Shown here: piece after piece, positions 32,165-53,983 of the stretch
Layout: every line of letters begins with the position of its first letter
Numbering within the stretch: the first letter of the stretch is position 1
Origin: Cryptosporangium phraense
Lineage (GTDB): Bacteria; Actinomycetota; Actinomycetes; Mycobacteriales; Cryptosporangiaceae
Assembly (NCBI RefSeq): GCF_006912135.1
Contig: NZ_VIRS01000017.1
Span: 124,001 to 188,000 of the forward strand
Length of the DNA: 64,000 nt
Direction of reading: 5' to 3'
Position numbers and translations under genes: made by a program
Notes under the pieces: model-generated
Seen by the model: the letters and a program-made list of their open reading frames with translations, nothing else
Told to the model about the DNA's origin: nothing
Database searches by the model: none

Positions 32165-33242
32165 GCCAGTCGGCCAGCACTTCCTCGTTGTGGGCGCCGG
32201 CGCCGGGCGGGGGCGTCGGCGTGCCCGGCGGCGTCCGGGAGAAGCGCGGGGCGGGGGCGGCCTGGGGCACGCCGTTGAGGTCGGCCACCGTGTTCCGCGC
32301 GGCCACGTGCGGATGCGACGACGCCTCGGCGAACGACAGCACCGGCGTCACGCACGCGTCGGTGCCCTCGAAAACCGCGGCCCACTCGTCCCGGGTGCGC
32401 GACCCGAACCGCTCGGTGAAGCGCTTGCGTATCGCCGGCCAGTTGGCCCGGTCGTCGCGCGAGGGCAGGTCGTCGATCTCCAGCCCGGCCAGCAGCGCGG
32501 TCCAGAACTGCGGCTCCAGCGCTCCGACCGACACGAACCGCCCGTCCGCGCACTCGTAGGTGTCGTACCAGGGCGCCCCGCCGTCGAGCAGGTTCGCGCC
32601 CCGCTCGTCCGTCCAAACTCCGGCGCCGCGGAACGACCAGAACATCTGGGACAGCAGCGTGGCCCCGTCGACCATCGCGGCGTCCACCACCTGGCCCTGA
32701 CCCGACCGCTCCCGCTCCCAGAGCGCCGACAAGATCCCGACGAGCAGCAGCATCGAGCCGCCGCCGAAGTCACCGACGAAGTTCAGCGGGGGCACCGGAC
32801 GCTCGCCGGCCCGGCCGATCGCGTGCAGCGCGCCGGTCAGCGAGATGTAGTTGATGTCGTGCCCGGCCCGCGACGCCCACGGCCCGTCCTGGCCCCATCC
32901 GGTCATCCGGGCGTAGACCAGCCGGGGGTTGATCGCCGCGCAGTCGTCGGGACCGATGCCCAGCCGCTCGGTGACGCCCGGCCGGTACCCCTCGAGCAGC
33001 ACGTCGGCCACCGCGATCAGCGATCTCACCCGCTCCAGGTCGTCGGCATCCTTGAGGTTGAGCGCGATCGACCGACGTCCACGAAGGAGCTGGTCGGAGG
33101 AGCCGACGGTCGGGTCGAAGCCCGGGACCGGGCGGTCGACGCGGACGACGTCCGCGCCGAGGTCGGCCAGGATCATCGCCGCGTGCGGACCGGGGCCGAT
33201 CCCGGCGAGCTCGAGCACGCGCAGCCCGGAGAGGGGACCCAT
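32157..33242 (-). CDS. alpha-methylacyl-CoA racemase-like CoA-transferase III
   Basis: 361 residues, normal for the family. [20 protein letters not shown] and [18 protein letters not shown] open the CoA-binding fold. The racemase catalytic pair is present: His at about 128 in [15 protein letters not shown] and Asp at about 157 in [13 protein letters not shown], matching His126/Asp156 of the M. tuberculosis enzyme (MCR). It should interconvert (R)- and (S)-2-methylacyl-CoA for beta-oxidation of branched chains such as sterol side chains. The ATG overlaps the crotonase stop by one base (TGATG), giving a crotonase-racemase operon. Confidence 0.92.
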
Positions 33243-47006: not shown

Positions 47007-48461
47007 TCACCGAACCGGCGTGAAACCGGTCGCGGTGCGGGTGAACCGCTGCGGCGCGGCGCCGGGTGACGTCTCCACCTGGAGCTGATTCGCCTTCAGG
47101 TCGACCTTCGGACCGGGCCCGCTGCCGACCAGCTCGACGAGCGCTGCCGGACCGGGAAACACGTCGGGCTGCCCCAGGAACGCGACGATCGCGTAGGTGA
47201 GCTGATCCGTCCGGCCCGGCTCGGTCGGCCGGATCCGGATGACGACCACCGCCGACTCCGGCATCGCGGAGTCCGCCGGCACGTGGACGACCGGGAACGC
47301 CCGCGTATCGACCTCGAACTGCAGCGGCCACTGGTCGTCCTTGGGCAGCTGGGCGACGCCGTTGACGAAGTGCGCGATCGGCCCGCCTCCGCCCGGGCGC
47401 CCGGCCGTGATCACCGGCCGCTTGCTGACGTCCAGCGGCAACTCCCAGTCCCCGTTCGCGAAGTCGACGTCCCGGATCGACGACGGCGCCGGAACCACCG
47501 CGGACTTCGCCGGTGCCGGCAGCGCGGCGAGCGGCACGACGGCCGGATCGAACGACGCCGCCGGCACGTCGCCCGGCTTCGCGGACGCCCCGAAAGCGAG
47601 GAACGTGCTCTCCACCGTCCCGGTCTTCACCGCCATCACCGCGCCGCTCTCCGGGTTGACCAGGATCCGGTCGGTGACCCCGCCGACCGTGAACCCGATG
47701 CCGGGCGAGTGCCGTCCCCGCCCGTCCACGCCGTCCCGGACGAGATACGCGCCGGGAATCCGGGTCGCGACGTCGTACACCCACCCGCGGATCACCGGAC
47801 TGGCCTGACCACCCAGCTTCAGCATCTGCGCGACCGCGGCCGACATCCGGAACGTGCCGTGTCCGTCGCGGTCGGCCTTCTCCAGTGCGGCCAGCAGGTC
47901 CTCGGGGCGCAACGTGCGGGCGGCCAGATCGAGCAGCTGGTAGTTCGGCCGTTCGATCATGGCCTGGAACACCGTCGTCTTCGGTGTGCCGGCGGGCAGG
48001 TCCACGTACGGGCGGAGGTCTCCGCTGCCGGTGCGGCCGAAGCTCTGCTTCTGACCGTTCGCCGAGTACCAGGACTCGCGGGTCGAGCCGCCGGAGGCCT
48101 CCCGGACGTAGATGAAGTCGTCCGGCCGGTAGCCGGGCAGCTGCCAGTCCCGGCCCTCCCGGTTCGAGGCCGCGGCCAGCAGGCTGCGCAGCTCGGCCAG
48201 CGACTTCGGGCCCGACCCGGCGGGTGTCACCGAGTTCGTCTCCCGGCCGAGGAACAGGCTCACTCCGGCGGTCAGGGCGACGACCAGCACCAGGGCGGCG
48301 GCAGTCAGCAGCGGGACGGCCCAGCCGCTGTTCCGGAACGTGCGGCGCGTCGTCAGCTGCGAGAGCAGCGCGTCCCGAGGTACCCCGGGCTCACGGTCGG
48401 CCGGTGCGGCCGGCAGCAGGGCCGCGACCTCGGCGATCTCGGCGTGTTCGGTGGTGTTCAT
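47007..48461 (-). CDS. CU044_5270-type membrane-anchored protein, third copy
   Basis: 484 residues. A cytoplasmic N-terminal segment (about 50 residues, MNTTEHAEIAEVAALLPAAP) precedes one transmembrane helix (about 51-72, AVPLLTAAALVLVVALTAGV) and a long extracytoplasmic region with DDFIYVREASGG, ESWYSANGQ and a Val/Pro-rich second half. The pattern of short cytoplasmic tail, helix and WY.ng motifs fits the CU044_5270 family encoded beside ECF sigma genes, presumably as anti-sigma or signal-sensing partner. The ATG overlaps the sigma stop by 4 bp. It is longer than copy two and similar to copy one. Confidence 0.72.
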   Translation of the reverse strand: MNTTEHAEIAEVAALLPAAPADREPGVPRDALLSQLTTRRTFRNSGWAVPLLTAAALVLVVALTAGVSLFLGRETNSVTPAGSGPKSLAELRSLLAAASNREGRDWQLPGYRPDDFIYVREASGGSTRESWYSANGQKQSFGRTGSGDLRPYVDLPAGTPKTTVFQAMIERPNYQLLDLAARTLRPEDLLAALEKADRDGHGTFRMSAAVAQMLKLGGQASPVIRGWVYDVATRIPGAYLVRDGVDGRGRHSPGIGFTVGGVTDRILVNPESGAVMAVKTGTVESTFLAFGASAKPGDVPAASFDPAVVPLAALPAPAKSAVVPAPSSIRDVDFANGDWELPLDVSKRPVITAGRPGGGGPIAHFVNGVAQLPKDDQWPLQFEVDTRAFPVVHVPADSAMPESAVVVIRIRPTEPGRTDQLTYAIVAFLGQPDVFPGPAALVELVGSGPGPKVDLKANQLQVETSPGAAPQRFTRTATGFTPVR

Positions 48462-49012
48462 CGGGCCTCCTGCCGGGCCGGCGCAACGGTGTCGCGGAGA
48501 TGGGCGCGCGCCCGGGACAGCCTCGAGCGCACGGTGCCGATCGGGATGCCGAGCGCTTCGGCGGTGGCGGCGTAGTCGAGCCCGGCGTAGACGCAGAGCG
48601 CGACGACCTCCCGCTCGGGCCGGCGCAGGGTCTCGAGCGCGGCCCGGACCGCGCGCCACTGGTCGAGGTCGTCGAGGTGCCCGACGAGCGCCTCGGCGAA
48701 GTCGGGCTCGGCCGGAACCCGCGGCAACCGGGCCAGCGCCGCCGCGTGGCGACGCCGGGCCCGGGCGGTGTTCCGCACGACGTTCGTCGCGATGCCGAGC
48801 AGCCAGGGCAGCAGCGTGCCGCCCTCGGCGTCGATGCGTTCCCGGCACCGCCAGGCCTCGAGGAACGTCAGCGAGACCGCGTCCTCGGCACCGGTCCAGT
48901 CACCGAGTAATCGGTAGGCGTGGTTGTAGACGGGGCGTGCGGCCGAGTCGAACAGCTCGCCGAAGGCGGCCGAGTCCCCGGCCCGCACGCGTTCCCGCAG
49001 AGTGGTCGTCAC
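48458..49012 (-). CDS. ECF sigma factor, copy B
   Basis: 184 residues. MTTTLRERVRAGDSAAFGEL, YNHAYRLLGDWTGAEDAVSL and TFLEAWRCRERIDAEGG form region 2; ETLRRPEREVVALCVYAGLD and TAEALGIPIGTVRSRLSRAR form region 4. It closely resembles the sigma factor at 49910-50500 through the whole length. The start GTGACGACCAC lies 9 nt after CTGTGGACAG, the same context as the CU044_5270-type gene at 52014. The partner gene follows with a 4-bp overlap. Confidence 0.92.
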   Translation of the reverse strand: MTTTLRERVRAGDSAAFGELFDSAARPVYNHAYRLLGDWTGAEDAVSLTFLEAWRCRERIDAEGGTLLPWLLGIATNVVRNTARARRRHAAALARLPRVPAEPDFAEALVGHLDDLDQWRAVRAALETLRRPEREVVALCVYAGLDYAATAEALGIPIGTVRSRLSRARAHLRDTVAPARQEAR

Positions 49013-49021
49013 GCCCTACTT

Positions 49022-49031
49022 CTGTCCACAG
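49022..49031 (-). promoter_or_regulatory. motif CTGTGGACAG before sigma copy B
   Basis: On the minus strand CTGTGGACAG is followed by 9 nt and the GTG start. The same decamer with the same spacing lies before the gene at 52014, so it may be a promoter or operator shared by these modules. Confidence 0.45.
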
Positions 49032-49049
49032 CCCGGGCACAGTTCCGAC

Positions 49050-49913
49050 TTATTTTGCCGGTGGCACTCCGGCGTACGGAACCAGGGCGGTGGAGACGAT
49101 CGCCGGCCCCGGTGGGCCGCCCGACGCCCCGTCCGATTCGGCGAGCAGCGACCCGTCGTCCGGATCGATGAGGATCACCTGCCGACCCAGGGTCAGCGCC
49201 GTGCCGGGCCGGCCGACGGCGTCGGAGACGCCGGTCCGGACGGTCACGCCCGGCACCCGCAGGGCCGCGCGGTAGAGCCAGGTGCGGACCGCCGGTGACG
49301 CCAGACCGCCGTTGCGCAGCATCAGCCGGACCTTGGCGAAGATCGCGTCGTTCCCGGACGCGGTTCGGCGGAGCTCGGCGTAGAGCGCCTCGTCGCCGTT
49401 CCCGCGCAGGCCCTGCGCACCCGACATGTACGTGTAGGTCGGGTACTTCACCGCGCTGACCACGTTCTGCGGTGCCCCCGCTTTCCACTGCGTGAGCAGC
49501 GGATCGGTGGTGCGCAGGCCCTTCGCGTCGAGGATCGCGCCCCGGCTCCCGCCGCCCTCGTTGACCCAGATCTCGGTCGTCCCGGCCGGGTCGGTGCCCG
49601 GTGTCGTCCGGGTCTGCACGTAGACGAAGTCGCTCGGGTTGAACCCCAGTTCCCGCGGCTTCACGGTCCGGTCGACGACGTCGAGCCGGGCGCGCAGGTC
49701 CTGGATCGGCTTCGCGTCGGCGACCGGCGCGGGCGGGTCCGACCGCAGGCCGGCGCCGGCCAGCGCGGCGATCGCGACGGTCGCGGCCACCGCCCCGGCG
49801 GCCAGCGCGGGCACCAGGAACCGGCGACGCCGCGCTACCGGCTCGGTGCGCGTGATCTCGGCCAGCAGGGCCGCCCGCCGCTGGTCGGCGTCGGGGAGCG
49901 GACAGTCGATCAC
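49050..49913 (-). CDS. CU044_5270-type membrane-anchored protein, second copy
   Basis: 287 residues. A cytoplasmic tail with CPLPDADQRRAALLAEITRT, then one transmembrane helix (about 37-57, FLVPALAAGAVAATVAIAAL), then an extracytoplasmic part with LGFNPSDFVYVQTRT, TEIWVNEGGG and TYTYMSGAQGLRG. It is shorter than the other two copies and lacks their C-terminal half. The GTG start overlaps the upstream sigma stop by 4 bp. Like the others it is probably the partner of that sigma factor. Confidence 0.72.
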   Translation of the reverse strand: MIDCPLPDADQRRAALLAEITRTEPVARRRRFLVPALAAGAVAATVAIAALAGAGLRSDPPAPVADAKPIQDLRARLDVVDRTVKPRELGFNPSDFVYVQTRTTPGTDPAGTTEIWVNEGGGSRGAILDAKGLRTTDPLLTQWKAGAPQNVVSAVKYPTYTYMSGAQGLRGNGDEALYAELRRTASGNDAIFAKVRLMLRNGGLASPAVRTWLYRAALRVPGVTVRTGVSDAVGRPGTALTLGRQVILIDPDDGSLLAESDGASGGPPGPAIVSTALVPYAGVPPAK

Positions 49914-50500
49914 CACGCCTCCTCGTGCGCGGCGACCGGGGGAACGGCCACGTCCCGGAGCCGGGCCCGGGCCCGGGACAGCCGCGACCGGACCGTGCCG
50001 ACCGGGATGTCCAGCGCCTCGGCCGTGGCGACGTAGTCCAGCTCGGCGTAGACGCAGAGCGCGAACACCTCGCGCTCGGGGCGGCGCAGCGCGCTCAGCG
50101 CCTGCTGGGCGGCCCGGGCCGAGTTCAGCACGTCGATCTTGTCGGCGACCTCGTCGGCGAAGTCGGGCTCGTCGCGCGGCTGGGGTAACCGGTCGAGTGC
50201 GGCCGCGTGCCGCCGCCGGGCCCGAGCGAGGTTGCGGGCCACGTTCGTCGCGATGCCGAGCAGCCACGGCACCAGCGGCCCGCCCTCCGGCTGCACCCGG
50301 TTCCGGCCCCGCCAGGCCTCGAGGAACGTCAGCGAGACCGTGTCCTCGGCCGCCGACCAGTCGCCGAGCAGCCGGTAGGCGTGGTTGTAGACGCGTCGGG
50401 CCCCGACGTCGAAGAGCTCGCCGAACGCGGCGGGGTCCCCGGCTCGGACGCGGTGGCGCAAGGATGTCGTCACAGGTGAAGTCCTATCGGGGGTATTCAC
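49910..50500 (-). CDS. ECF sigma factor, copy A
   Basis: 196 residues. TTSLRHRVRAGDPAAFGELF, YNHAYRLLGDWSAAEDTVSL and TFLEAWRGRNRVQPEGG are region 2; SALRRPEREVFALCVYAELD and TAEALDIPVGTVRSRLSRAR are region 4. GTG 50500 overlaps the upstream gene by 4 bp, but the internal GTG at 50473 aligns with the start of copy B (VTTSLRHRVRAGD against VTTTLRERVRAGD) and may be the original start. It is coupled to the CU044_5270-type gene at 49913. Confidence 0.9.
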   Translation of the reverse strand: MNTPDRTSPVTTSLRHRVRAGDPAAFGELFDVGARRVYNHAYRLLGDWSAAEDTVSLTFLEAWRGRNRVQPEGGPLVPWLLGIATNVARNLARARRRHAAALDRLPQPRDEPDFADEVADKIDVLNSARAAQQALSALRRPEREVFALCVYAELDYVATAEALDIPVGTVRSRLSRARARLRDVAVPPVAAHEEAW

Positions 50501-52014
50501 TTGGCGGGGGCGAAGCCGAGGCCGCTACGGGTGTACTTCTGCGGGGTGGCCCCGGGGTGCTCGGCGATCGAGAGCGTGTCGCCGTCGGTGGTGACGACCG
50601 GGCCCGGGCCGTTCCGGACGATCAGGACGATCGACTGCGGCCCCGGGAACAGCGGGCCCGGCGCACCGGAGAACAGGATCACCGCGTACTGCACGTCGGG
50701 CAGCGAGGACGTGATCGCGATCGTCACGACCGCGCAGTCGGCGCCCGGCTTCTTGGCCGCGTCCTCGTACTTCGGCCCGGTCGTCGGCCAGACGCCGTCC
50801 AGCTGGGCCTGGTTCGGCGTCAGGTACACCGGCTTGCCGATCGTCAGCTCGAGCTTCTTCCCGCGCTCGGTCAGCGTCACCCGGCCGTCGCGGAAGTCGG
50901 CGACCGGCCCGCCGGAGCCCGAGTCGAGGCCCGCGTCGACCACCGGCGCTCTCGAGACGTCGATCGGCACCTCGAACTTCAGGTTGCGGACGTCGACGTC
51001 ACGGATGTCGGCGGCCGGATCCCAGCTCGGCTTGCCCTGCGATACCTCGGGGACCTCGCTGGGCGACGGCGGTGGCGTGGCCTTCCGGATCGTCGTCGCG
51101 CCGACCTTGTCGACGATCCCGCCGAGCGAGATCGCGTCCGGCTTCCCGCCGGCCGGCAGCACGCCCTCGTAGCGCAGCGCGCCGGACGCCGGGTCGAACG
51201 CGATCATCTGCCGTCCGTAGGTGATCGCGGCGACGTGTTTCCCGGTGACGTCGACGACGTCCGGGTCGAAGCCGGCGCCGGGCACGAGCGCGGCCGCGTG
51301 GTAGAGCCAGGCCGCCGTCGGGGGTTCGGCCACCCCGGCCACCTGCAACAGCCGGCGGACCCGTGCGAAGACGTTCCCTTCGGGGTCGCCCTTGTCGTTC
51401 TTCGTCGCGTGCCGGATCGCCTCCAGCAGGTCGAGTGGCCCGGAGCGGCCCGCGTACGGATCGATCTTCGAGTACGTGGGCTGTTCGGCGGCGGTCTTCA
51501 GCGTCGACAGGATCAGGTTGCCGGTGACGCCGGACGGCTCCTCGGACATCGGGCCGCCGTCGATCCGGATGCTCGTCGTGCCGTGACCATCGGCCGGGAA
51601 CCACTGCTCGCGGGTCGCGAGGGCGCCACCGGCCGTCCGGACCCGGGCCTTCGTGTAGACGTAGTCGGAGTCGGGCTGGGACCAGTTCGGGGCCCGGTAC
51701 GACTTCACGGCCTTGTCGACGCGGGCCAGCAGCCCGTTCAGGCTGTCGTCGCGCAGCGCCGGGCGGGTCGGGGACGGCGCCCGGGCCGGGGCAGCGGTGG
51801 TCGTCGGGCGCCCGTCGGTCCGCGGCTCGAGCACCACCGCGCCGAGCACGACCGCGGCGACCGTGGCCGCGACCGCTCCGGCGGCCAGGAACGGGGGCAG
51901 CAGCCGACCGGTGCGCCGCACGGCCGGGGCTCGCTGCAGCTCCCGGAGGAGCGCGGCCCGGCGCTCGTCGGCGCCGGGCAGCGGAGCTTCACGGGCTGGC
52001 GGTGTGGTCGTCAC
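50497..52014 (-). CDS. CU044_5270-type membrane-anchored protein, first copy
   Basis: 505 residues. N-terminal tail with LPGADERRAALLRELQRAPA, one transmembrane helix near 40-60 (PFLAAGAVAATVAAVVLGAV) and a long extracytoplasmic region with SDYVYTKARVRTAGG, REQWFPADGHG and repeated VTGN, RDVDVRNL and FPGPQSIVLIV motifs that resemble the copy at 47007-48461. It has no sigma gene directly upstream, unlike the other two; sigma copy A follows it instead. Its start context CTGTGGACAG-N9-GTGACGACCAC equals that of sigma copy B. It is 26 bp after the sulfotransferase gene. Confidence 0.72.
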   Translation of the reverse strand: MTTTPPAREAPLPGADERRAALLRELQRAPAVRRTGRLLPPFLAAGAVAATVAAVVLGAVVLEPRTDGRPTTTAAPARAPSPTRPALRDDSLNGLLARVDKAVKSYRAPNWSQPDSDYVYTKARVRTAGGALATREQWFPADGHGTTSIRIDGGPMSEEPSGVTGNLILSTLKTAAEQPTYSKIDPYAGRSGPLDLLEAIRHATKNDKGDPEGNVFARVRRLLQVAGVAEPPTAAWLYHAAALVPGAGFDPDVVDVTGKHVAAITYGRQMIAFDPASGALRYEGVLPAGGKPDAISLGGIVDKVGATTIRKATPPPSPSEVPEVSQGKPSWDPAADIRDVDVRNLKFEVPIDVSRAPVVDAGLDSGSGGPVADFRDGRVTLTERGKKLELTIGKPVYLTPNQAQLDGVWPTTGPKYEDAAKKPGADCAVVTIAITSSLPDVQYAVILFSGAPGPLFPGPQSIVLIVRNGPGPVVTTDGDTLSIAEHPGATPQKYTRSGLGFAPAK

Positions 52015-52023
52015 ACTCCTTAG

Positions 52024-52033
52024 CTGTCCACAG
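52024..52033 (-). promoter_or_regulatory. motif CTGTGGACAG before the first CU044_5270-type gene
   Basis: Same decamer and same 9-nt distance to the start codon as at 49022-49031. It lies in the 26-bp gap behind the sulfotransferase gene. Confidence 0.45.
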
Positions 52034-52040
52034 GAGCCAC

Positions 52041-53198
52041 TCAGGTTCCGTGCGCGGACAGGTATTCCGTGAATCGCTCGTCGACCTCGGACGCGGTCAG
52101 CCCGAAATCGTCGAGCGTGTAGCGGTGTGCCGGACGGCGGGCGCCGGTGCGGCTCTCGGCGTGGATCTCGTCCATCGCGGTGCGGGCCGCGTCGGTGAGC
52201 TCGAGGCCGAAGTGCTCGTAGACCCGCGTCGCGGTGCCGAGCGGATCGGCGACGAACTCCTCGTACTCGACGTCGAAGAACTGGGCCGGGTCGTAGCGGG
52301 TCCGGTCGGCCCGGAACCGGTCGAGCCCGCGGGCCCACAGGTCGAGCTGATCCCGCCCCACCACCGAACCCCGGAACACCGTCGACCAGCCCTCGGTCGC
52401 CGCCTCGGCCAGGCTGCACACCGACGCCATCGCGGTCCGGGGCGCCCGGTGGGTCTGGATCACCAGCGCGTCCGGATAGGCGGCGAACAGCGCGTCGAGC
52501 GCGAACAGGTGACTCGGGTTCTTCAGCACCCAGCGTTTGCCGGCGTCCGGCAGGCCGATCAGCTGCAGGTTCCGCCGGTGCCGCCGGTACGCCGAGCCCC
52601 AGTCCTGCCCGGCCAGCCAGGCCGAGTAGCGGGGCAGGTGGGCCAGGCACTCGAACGAGATCGACTGCATCGACTGGCGAAGCAGCTGCCAGCACTCCTC
52701 GACCTGGTCGGCCGACATGTAGTGCAGCCCCATGAACTCCGGGTGCTCGACGTGGTGCTGCTCGAACGCGCTCGACAGCCGCTGGTAGAGCGGATCGGCG
52801 GCCCAGGTCTCCCGCGGCGGCCGGGGCTGCGGCATCTCGGTCAGCCACATCTCCAGCCCCTGGTGGGCCGGGTCGGCGGTGAGCAGACGGTGCAGCGCGG
52901 TGGTGCCGGTGCGGGGGAGACCGGTCACGAAGATCGGCCGCTCGATCGGCACCTTCGCGTACCCCGGGTTCGCCGCCCAGGACGCTTCCGACAACAGCCG
53001 GGCCACCAGCGCGCCCCGCAGGAACGCCCGGGTGACCGAGAAGCCCGCCGGGGTCAGCGCGGCCTCGGCCGCGTACGACTCCAGCAGCACCTGCAGGCCC
53101 TCGAGGTACTCGGAGTCCCCGAAGTCGGTGAGGCCGGTGATTCTGGTGGCCGAGGCGTGCAGGTCCTCGACCGTGCCGACCTTGTCGCGGACGACCAT
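52041..53198 (-). CDS. sulfotransferase (Sulfotransfer_3 type)
   Basis: 385 residues. The PAPS 5'-phosphosulfate loop FVTGLPRTGTTALHRLLTAD is at about 90-109. The 3'-phosphate-binding region VIQTHRAPRTAMASVCSLAE comes later, after VLKNPSHLFALDALFAAYPD, which is the usual pattern of actinobacterial stf-like enzymes. It should transfer the sulfuryl group from PAPS to a hydroxyl of an unknown acceptor. ATG 53198 overlaps the SDR stop by one base (TGATG). The PAPS-forming genes cysD and cysNC lie 2.5 kb away in divergent orientation. Confidence 0.9.
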   Translation of the reverse strand: MVVRDKVGTVEDLHASATRITGLTDFGDSEYLEGLQVLLESYAAEAALTPAGFSVTRAFLRGALVARLLSEASWAANPGYAKVPIERPIFVTGLPRTGTTALHRLLTADPAHQGLEMWLTEMPQPRPPRETWAADPLYQRLSSAFEQHHVEHPEFMGLHYMSADQVEECWQLLRQSMQSISFECLAHLPRYSAWLAGQDWGSAYRRHRRNLQLIGLPDAGKRWVLKNPSHLFALDALFAAYPDALVIQTHRAPRTAMASVCSLAEAATEGWSTVFRGSVVGRDQLDLWARGLDRFRADRTRYDPAQFFDVEYEEFVADPLGTATRVYEHFGLELTDAARTAMDEIHAESRTGARRPAHRYTLDDFGLTASEVDERFTEYLSAHGT

Positions 53199-53983
53199 CA
53201 GTGGTGCCACTCCCCACAGTTGACGTCGAGACACTGGCCGGTGATCGCCCGGGCCATCGGCGAGGCCAGGAACACCACCGCGTCGGCGATCTCGTCCGGT
53301 TCGGGCAGCCGGCGCAGGTCGAGCTCGGCCGCGGTCTCGTCGTAGACGTCCTGCTGGGTGATCCCGCGCTGCTCGCCGAGGTAGCTGAAGTACCACTGGA
53401 GGTTCGGCGCCCAGATGTAGCCGGGCGCGACCGTGTTGACCCGGATGCCCCGCGGCCCGACCTCGGTGGCCAGGCTCTGCGACATCGCCAGCAGGCTCGC
53501 CTTGGCCATCTTGTACGGCCCGAACGTCCGCCGGGAGTGGCGCAGCACCGCCGAGTTGATCATGACCACCGACGCCTCTCCGGCCGATTCCAGGGCGGGG
53601 AGGAACTTCCGGGTCAGGGCCAGCGTCCCGAGGACGTTCGTCTCCAGGCCGCGCCGCACGTCCTTCAGGTCGACGTCGGCGAAGTCGGCCAGCGGGGGGA
53701 TCGCGAACGCGTTGTTGACCAGCACGTCGGCGCGGCCGAAGGCCGAGAGCGTGGTCTCGACCAGCGCGGTGGTCTCCTCGTCCGACCGGATGTCGGCCCG
53801 GACCGTCACCGCCCGGCGGCCGAGCGCGGTGACCTCCTTCGCGACCTCGGCCAGCCGCGACTCGGTGCGCGCGGCCAGCACGACGTCGGCACCGGCCGCG
53901 GCCGCGCGCAGCGCGATCGACCGGCCGAGGCCCGGCCCGATCCCCGACACGACGACGACCTTGTCGTCGAGAAGACCCGTCAT
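53198..53983 (-). CDS. short-chain dehydrogenase/reductase
   Basis: 261 residues. The cofactor motif is SGIGPGLGRSIALRAAAAGA (Gly14, Gly18, Gly20), VLVNNAF is near 88 and the catalytic Ser and YKMAK are in INSAVLRHSRRTFGPYKMAK near 142-161. ITGQCLDVNCGEWHH ends the protein. It probably oxidises an alcohol or reduces a ketone on a hydrophobic substrate such as a steroid, in step with the neighbouring sulfotransferase; this is inference. The ATG overlaps the DUF1214 stop by 4 bp. Confidence 0.9.
   Translation of the reverse strand: MTGLLDDKVVVVSGIGPGLGRSIALRAAAAGADVVLAARTESRLAEVAKEVTALGRRAVTVRADIRSDEETTALVETTLSAFGRADVLVNNAFAIPPLADFADVDLKDVRRGLETNVLGTLALTRKFLPALESAGEASVVMINSAVLRHSRRTFGPYKMAKASLLAMSQSLATEVGPRGIRVNTVAPGYIWAPNLQWYFSYLGEQRGITQQDVYDETAAELDLRRLPEPDEIADAVVFLASPMARAITGQCLDVNCGEWHH

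Follow-up and report, generated by a model that had tools for sequence, protein, structure and literature searches.

In Bacillus subtilis, the extracytoplasmic function (ECF) sigma factor sigma M is restrained by the membrane proteins YhdL and YhdK, and loss of this restraint is reported to be lethal (PMC6827917). Here we describe a gene cluster of Cryptosporangium phraense in which one ECF sigma factor is likewise proposed to stand under more than one membrane protein. The cluster occupies positions 47007 to 52014 of the analysed window, a 64-kb stretch (G000:C17:124001-188000) of the 8.46-Mb source genome G000 to which all coordinates refer unless a locus is named, and consists, on the minus strand, of the genes for partner C, sigma B, partner B, sigma A and partner A in this order, the partners being single-pass membrane proteins related to CU044_5270. 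YhdL and YhdK form one complex, and the comparison with partners B and C is one of arrangement.

RseB is a separate periplasmic protein in the sigma E pathway. The predicted ectodomain of partner B weakly (Z at most 4.2) resembles the LolA/RseB superfamily, to which this pathway (RseA-RseB and MucA-MucB; structures 3m4w, 2v42 and 6in8) offers a parallel, but unlike the separate RseB such a domain would here sit in the anti-sigma factor itself. The class II anti-sigma factor CnrY has a cytoplasmic tail that is short, free of zinc and made up of one or two helices (PMC7406223), as the partners do; no sequence relation between them is shown, and the models of partners B and C contain only one tail helix. 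The classification of anti-sigma domains in the same source set aside domains of fewer than 50 residues as possible class II members, a range into which the tails of partners B and C fall. The SigI/RsgI set of Clostridium thermocellum likewise comprises paralogous sigma/anti-sigma pairs with outside domains diverged for different inputs, but it belongs to other sigma and anti-sigma families, and its domains are reported to sense substrates for cellulosome control (PMC12203970). Other actinomycete loci of the CU044_5270 type (L099, L100) share with the present cluster local tandem copies and the placing of a single-pass partner gene behind the sigma gene, which it usually overlaps by 4 bp. In the triple array of L099, however, every module is complete, whereas here the first module lacks a sigma gene and its partner stands on a promoter-like element.

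The reading that we prefer, with a probability of about 0.6, is that a sigma/partner module expanded locally, that the sigma gene of partner C is gone, that the partners are single-pass anti-sigma factors and that both sigma factors act on elements of the form GGAAC-N14/15-GGACAG, activating two of these termed P1 and P2. The cluster itself is real, its origin by duplication with loss of one sigma gene, as suggested in a preliminary description of this DNA, is supported though not proven by trees, by the shared neighbourhood of the site in four genomes of the genus and by the promoter-like element that precedes partner C, and the functional part is an inference from sequence.

Gene order, trees and relics of the cluster

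Two of the three partner genes directly follow a sigma gene, namely partner B (49050..49913, 287 aa) behind sigma B (49910..50473) and partner A (47007..48461, 484 aa) behind sigma A (48458..49012, 184 aa). The most upstream partner, C (50497..52014, 505 aa), has no sigma gene of its own, which confirms the gene order described before. How unusual this is became apparent from a survey of 44 partner genes at 39 loci outside the window, from which the three partners of the window were left out. In 41 of the 44 cases the partner lay directly behind a sigma gene, 27 times with a 4-bp overlap by the start chosen, and the three exceptions were the orthologue of C in the sister genome G001, the second partner of L100 and the partner of L107, whose sigma gene is frameshifted. 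A partner without its own sigma gene upstream is an exception; the position behind a sigma gene, usual in the survey but outside the curated family model, is occupied by A and B, not by C.

The two sigma factors share 73% identity over 178 aa and are thus as similar as had been claimed. In both, the Pfam domains Sigma70_r2 and Sigma70_r4_2 were found above cut-off and no other domain was found, that is, they contain regions 2 and 4 only, which is the domain composition of ECF (group IV sigma-70) factors. Pairwise comparison of the partners gave 30% identity over 449 columns for A and C (E 1e-36), 33% for B and C (E 4e-23) and 32% for A and B (E 5e-15).

Trees were calculated for the partners (46 rows; L107 was dropped because its frameshifted sigma gene reads into the partner) and for the sigma factors (50 rows, after four second sigma hits and any sigmas of 90 aa or less had been dropped). 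Eight partners of this sigma subgroup from the genus, comprising the three of the window, two of the equivalent site in G001 and those of L046, L047 and L048, formed one clade (support 100/99) inside which A, B and C grouped (94/85). B paired with its G001 orthologue (100/99) and C with its own (100/98), and three other partners from genomes of the genus (L052, L102, L104) fell elsewhere. The corresponding sigma factors formed a genus group as well (90/92) with its inner order open, into which a long-branch row from G000 itself (L055) was also drawn. At the DNA level, the five sigma genes and relics of the site shared 73-85% identity, with eight of ten pairs at 76 or more, whereas their 20 pairings with the four nearest sigma genes elsewhere in the genus all gave 69-74%. 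As the genus partners and the sigma factors of the site group in the trees, a local origin of the cluster by tandem duplication of a sigma/partner module within the genus is supported by sequence comparison, and an origin of the copies from distant sources, named beforehand as a ground for refutation, is contradicted.

In G000 and in the congeneric genomes G001, G002 and G003, the site is flanked by a common set of five genes, the last of which is a sulfotransferase gene (52041..53342, minus strand) that lies outside the proposed switch and serves as fixed syntenic anchor. In G001, C, sigma B and B are intact and sigma A/partner A is reduced to a deletion relic that passes from sigma codon ~131 directly to partner residue ~321, the two parts lying in different frames. 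The G002 site retains sigma codons 1 to ~93, the partner tail with its transmembrane helix and the last ~27 partner codons; in G003 there is neither sigma nor partner, and GGAACCTGTCC remains. The site is thus partly or wholly decayed in three related species. A second locus of G002 (L050:8199-8930) carries sigma region 2 fused in frame to the C-terminal domain of a partner without transmembrane helix, where G003 has an intact pair (L047). In all three relics, one of G001 and two of G002, sigma region 4 and most of the partner were lost together. Such joint loss is expected if an unrestrained sigma factor is harmful, as sigma M is reported to be without YhdL (PMC6827917), but three cases are few. 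The four related genomes show both growth and decay of a proposed sigma/anti-sigma array, joint loss being a prediction of the anti-sigma role.

What stood before C is suggested by the surroundings of its start. The element before C in G001 and that before the sigma relic in G002 both contain GGGAACCTGTCC and GGACAGGACAGGA and lie at equivalent positions behind the sulfotransferase gene. A start with GTGACGACCAC is common to C, sigma A and the G002 sigma. Most simply, these sequences can be read as the deletion of a sigma gene whose start C then came to occupy.

The 4-bp overlaps reported earlier are real at sigma B/partner B and at sigma A/partner A, and the interval from partner B to sigma A indeed measures 37 bp; the third overlap, between C and sigma B, is probably unreal. 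It depended on a sigma B start at 50500, which probably lies too far upstream (187-196 aa across both starts). Because the conserved N-terminus begins at GTG 50473 (VTTSLRHRVRAGD, aligned with VTTTLRERVRAGD in sigma A) and the DNA upstream of the equivalent start in G001 is a promoter-like element, sigma B most likely begins at 50473, leaving a gap of 23 bp behind partner C.

The promoter-like element

P1 (GGAAC-N15-GGACAG, 52024..52049, minus strand) ends 9 nt before the start of partner C, with its -35-like box overlapping the 3' end of the sulfotransferase gene, and P2 (GGAAC-N14-GGACAG, 49022..49046, minus strand) lies 9 nt before sigma A within the 37-bp gap. The consensus can be given as GGAAC (or GTAAC)-N14/15-GGACAG (or GGCCAG, GGACAC). 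Within the genus, such an element precedes ten of the 11 starts of sigma clusters examined, these being C and sigma A in G000, C, sigma B and the sigma A relic in G001, and L046, L047, L048, L050 and L051; the start codon is 9 nt away in nine of them and 8 nt in one, and the eleventh, sigma B of G000, has no element. This constant distance suggests leaderless transcripts. Scans for sigma-70-type promoters and for terminators returned nothing above chance.

The window contains three matches where shuffled sequences predict 0.03. When 511,760 placements in the window were ranked by a matrix built from ten of the sites read outside the genus (see below), P1 and P2 shared the top rank with position 32630 on the plus strand; this third exact match (GGAAC-N14-GGACAG, 32630-32654) has no linked start codon. 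When a start codon 7-11 nt further on was demanded, only two distinct places were found in the whole genome of G000, both in the cluster. The same search yielded four places in G001 (three in the cluster), six in G002 (one at the relic), three in G003 (none at any of the sigma loci studied) and four in G004 from another genus (one just before sigma gene L049), and the reversed pattern gave 3, 0, 0, 0 and 1 in G000 to G004. Irrespective of starts, GGAACN{14,15}GGACAG occurred 14, 17, 35 and 18 times in G000, G001, G002 and G003, with 5, 0, 3 and 4 occurrences of the backward control. Prediction of a regulon from the element was abandoned, none of its occurrences in G000 apart from the cluster sites being tied to a gene start.

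Outside the genus, an element was readable by eye before sigma genes of the same clade at L049, L100, L101, L105, L106, five Streptomyces loci, L060, L111 and L112, and none was readable at the Jiangella sigma genes, at L053 and L054 or in more distant sigma clades. The site thereby offers a testable promoter consensus for a sigma clade, seen in several families. At L100, L111, L060, L112 and L105, a GTGA-N6-TCAC-like palindrome abuts the -35-like box of the sigma promoter, most clearly at L100 (GTGACCCGGGTCAC); we take it to resemble a CRP-type site.

A DNA-recognition segment of region 4 (GTVRSRLSRARA) is identical in sigma A and sigma B. Because both factors have this segment in common, and with the same promoter-like element before C and sigma A, a single promoter class for both is favoured, which would correspond to overlapping regulons.

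Proposed control of the sigma factors and alternative explanations

The partners are most likely single-pass anti-sigma factors, each predicted to hold its sigma factor at the membrane by a short, zinc-free cytoplasmic tail and to release it under the control of the outside domain. Their position behind the sigma gene (41 of 44), their single transmembrane helix with a short tail and the joint loss in three relics point to this role. Both sigma factors most likely recognise GGAAC-N14/15-GGACAG and would activate their own genes, P1 driving C, then sigma B, then B, and P2 driving sigma A, then A. As sigma B of G000 has no element of its own, it would depend on P1 and be made from the C transcript, together with C and hence between two partners, C and B, both of which are predicted to bind and restrain it. 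C would now stand directly behind the promoter that once drove the lost sigma gene. The site thereby presents a natural case of one sigma factor between two different partners, in which it can be asked whether anti-sigma factors combine as inputs.

Several points weigh against this reading. The sigma tree does not establish sigma A and sigma B as sisters, the stretch of first codons in which C agrees with the sigma genes is short, and other partners also start with MTT or MST. The element occurs in G000 also where no start is near (14 in total versus 5 for the backward control). The anti-sigma profile NF052375 matched partners A and B with only 20.3 and 17.9 bits (cut-off 100), and five of 28 partners at E up to 0.01. 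There is no codon-position constraint in the ectodomain of C between G000 and G001, and C may be drifting. Finally, the relic in G002 may represent an unduplicated ancestor, or the remnant of a whole array, instead of the counterpart of the lost sigma gene.

This last point leads to the alternative that survives best. The relic sigma of G002 shares 85% identity with sigma A, 80% with sigma B and 82% with the G001 sigma B; being about equally close to the three, it may be the single ancestral module from before the duplication, which would make C an additional copy of a partner set behind the promoter of that module. Under this explanation C never had a sigma gene but was inserted or converted behind a sigma promoter, and the array grew by partner duplication, for which the order sigma-partner-partner at L100 and the weak grouping of C with B in the partner tree (86/38) can be cited. 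However, the second partner of L100 (L100:3945-4955) is located downstream, and by eye no LPxxR-helix motif like that of the first partner is seen in its tail, unlike in that of C. Moreover, C stands at a sigma gene's distance from the element and at the syntenic place of the G002 sigma, and a partner follows a sigma gene in 41 of 44 cases. We regard this account as possible if somewhat unlikely, and loss of a sigma gene before C as the better reading.

Selection on the cluster was assessed by the ratio of non-synonymous to synonymous substitution rates (dN/dS; Nei-Gojobori, pairwise alignments), for which only the comparison with controls counts because the strong GC bias probably lowers dS. 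Between G000 and G001, the ratio was 0.24 for sigma B, 0.72 for partner B, 0.89 for partner C and 0.30 for the sulfotransferase gene, compared to 0.13-0.43 in eight other sigma pairs and 0.40-0.63 in eight other partner pairs. The ectodomain of C reached 1.12 (bootstrap 0.85-1.45) against 0.48-0.63 in three control ectodomains and evolves about twice as fast as control partners. Together with the missing codon-position bias and the reduction of other modules of this subgroup in the genus to relics, this could mean that C is on its way out, its ectodomain drifting neutrally and the gene only carrying transcription into sigma B. We consider such decay unlikely, since the tail and transmembrane helix of C appear constrained (0.36, bootstrap 0.19-0.60), the DNA alignment contains 16 gaps, of which 14 have a length divisible by three and the remaining two (1 and 5) sum to 6, and the frame reaches the conserved C-terminus in both species. 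C thus keeps its reading frame while the outside domain changes rapidly, and with two species relaxed constraint is not distinguishable from diversifying selection.

One may speculate further that C and B, with the same short type of tail and different, fast-changing RseB/LolA-like domains, lock sigma B twice, so that its release would need both signals and C, made first from the promoter of the lost sigma gene, would act as a built-in brake. We think this improbable as it stands; if true, the rapid change of the C ectodomain would reflect an antagonist, or else a signal from the envelope or from lipids that shifts rapidly.

That the partners are co-expressed membrane proteins or sigma activators instead of anti-sigma factors would agree with the failure of any anti-sigma family to reach its cut-off, with the absence of a Pfam match for A, B and C and with a literature search by the name CU044_5270 that found no paper naming it, but appears very improbable in view of their position behind the sigma gene, their topology, the charged helix that is conserved in their tails and the three relics from which sigma and partner disappeared together.

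Partner domains and wider occurrence

Over 47 partner proteins, the tail has a median length of 58 aa and is followed by one transmembrane helix and an outside domain. The motif Hx3Cx2C of the zinc-type (ZAS) class I anti-sigma factors was present in none of the 47 tails (last 60 residues before the best hydrophobic segment), and this class was rejected. NF052375 was discarded as proof of anti-sigma function, its matches to A and B being weak and matches also occurring in seven of 14 control genomes. Nor is the absence of a first tail helix peculiar to B and C, as was considered, the Jiangella and Microbispora partners showing no clear one by eye either.

The earlier description of three different extracytoplasmic domains holds only in part: a domain of ~190 aa is common to A, B and C, and A and C carry an extra C-terminal domain of ~160 aa, absent from B and found in one of 296 sampled genomes of the class, G000 itself, and in relatives within the genus. 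The model of partner B (mean pLDDT 82.8) shows a tail helix at residues 9-22, a transmembrane region of low confidence and the ectodomain at 67-278, and that of partner C (mean pLDDT 70.1) a tail helix at 13-27 and the extra, mostly beta domain at ~346-503. Each of these single-chain models thus has one tail helix, compared to the two short helices of the CnrY-type class II which bind sigma regions 4 and 2.

Foldseek returned no match at E up to 0.001 for the B ectodomain or the C model. In a second structure comparison with the B ectodomain, 21 of 31 rows were LolA, LolB, RseB, MucB, LprG, LprF or VioE, or 20 of 31 without VioE, which we count as LolA/RseB-type by what is presumably its fold. 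With Z of 2.3-4.2, rmsd of 4.4-6.5 and 105-127 aligned positions these matches are weak, and the predicted resemblance to the LolA/RseB superfamily is a lead only; if true, it would link these sigma factors to envelope lipids. Among 28 partner members no LolA-type Pfam match was obtained, and searching PDB sequences with the profile of the partners produced nothing convincing (best E 0.071). The modelled C-terminal domain of C gave middling matches to beta-propeller-type proteins (Z up to 8.0), which may reflect only a common arrangement.

The assignment of the partners to the CU044_5270 type stands in the broad sense, by homology and by tree position with accepted members, and fails in the strict sense, all three scoring below the curated cut-off of 100 bits for NCBIfam NF038083. 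B and C reached 74.7 and 79.2 bits, and A, unlisted by hmmscan, 60.5 bits in a genome search; at E up to 0.01 the profile matched 27 of the 28 proteins of alignment A3. The partners are thus relatives of the family that lie outside its curated core. One member of A3 also gave a weak FG-GAP match (E 0.0039).

Proteins of the CU044_5270 type adjoin ECF sigma factors in many actinomycetes. Matches (E up to 1e-12) occurred in 83 of the 296 class genomes, and at least four of these 83 (G000, G210, G245 and G265, among the matches listed) had two or more within 5 kb. L099 (3869-9486) contains three complete tandem sigma/partner modules; because two of its three sigma factors are sisters (100/98), local duplication seems to recur in this family. 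At L107 (1673-3813) the sigma gene is split over two frames, its second part sharing one open frame with the intact partner, either by a frameshift or by a sequencing error. The C-terminal domain of the L048 partner holds a GDVTGDGLTDVVV stretch. In the whole genome of G000, 55 matches to sigma B and 17 to NF038083 were counted (E up to 0.001), several of them being adjoining sigma/partner pairs.

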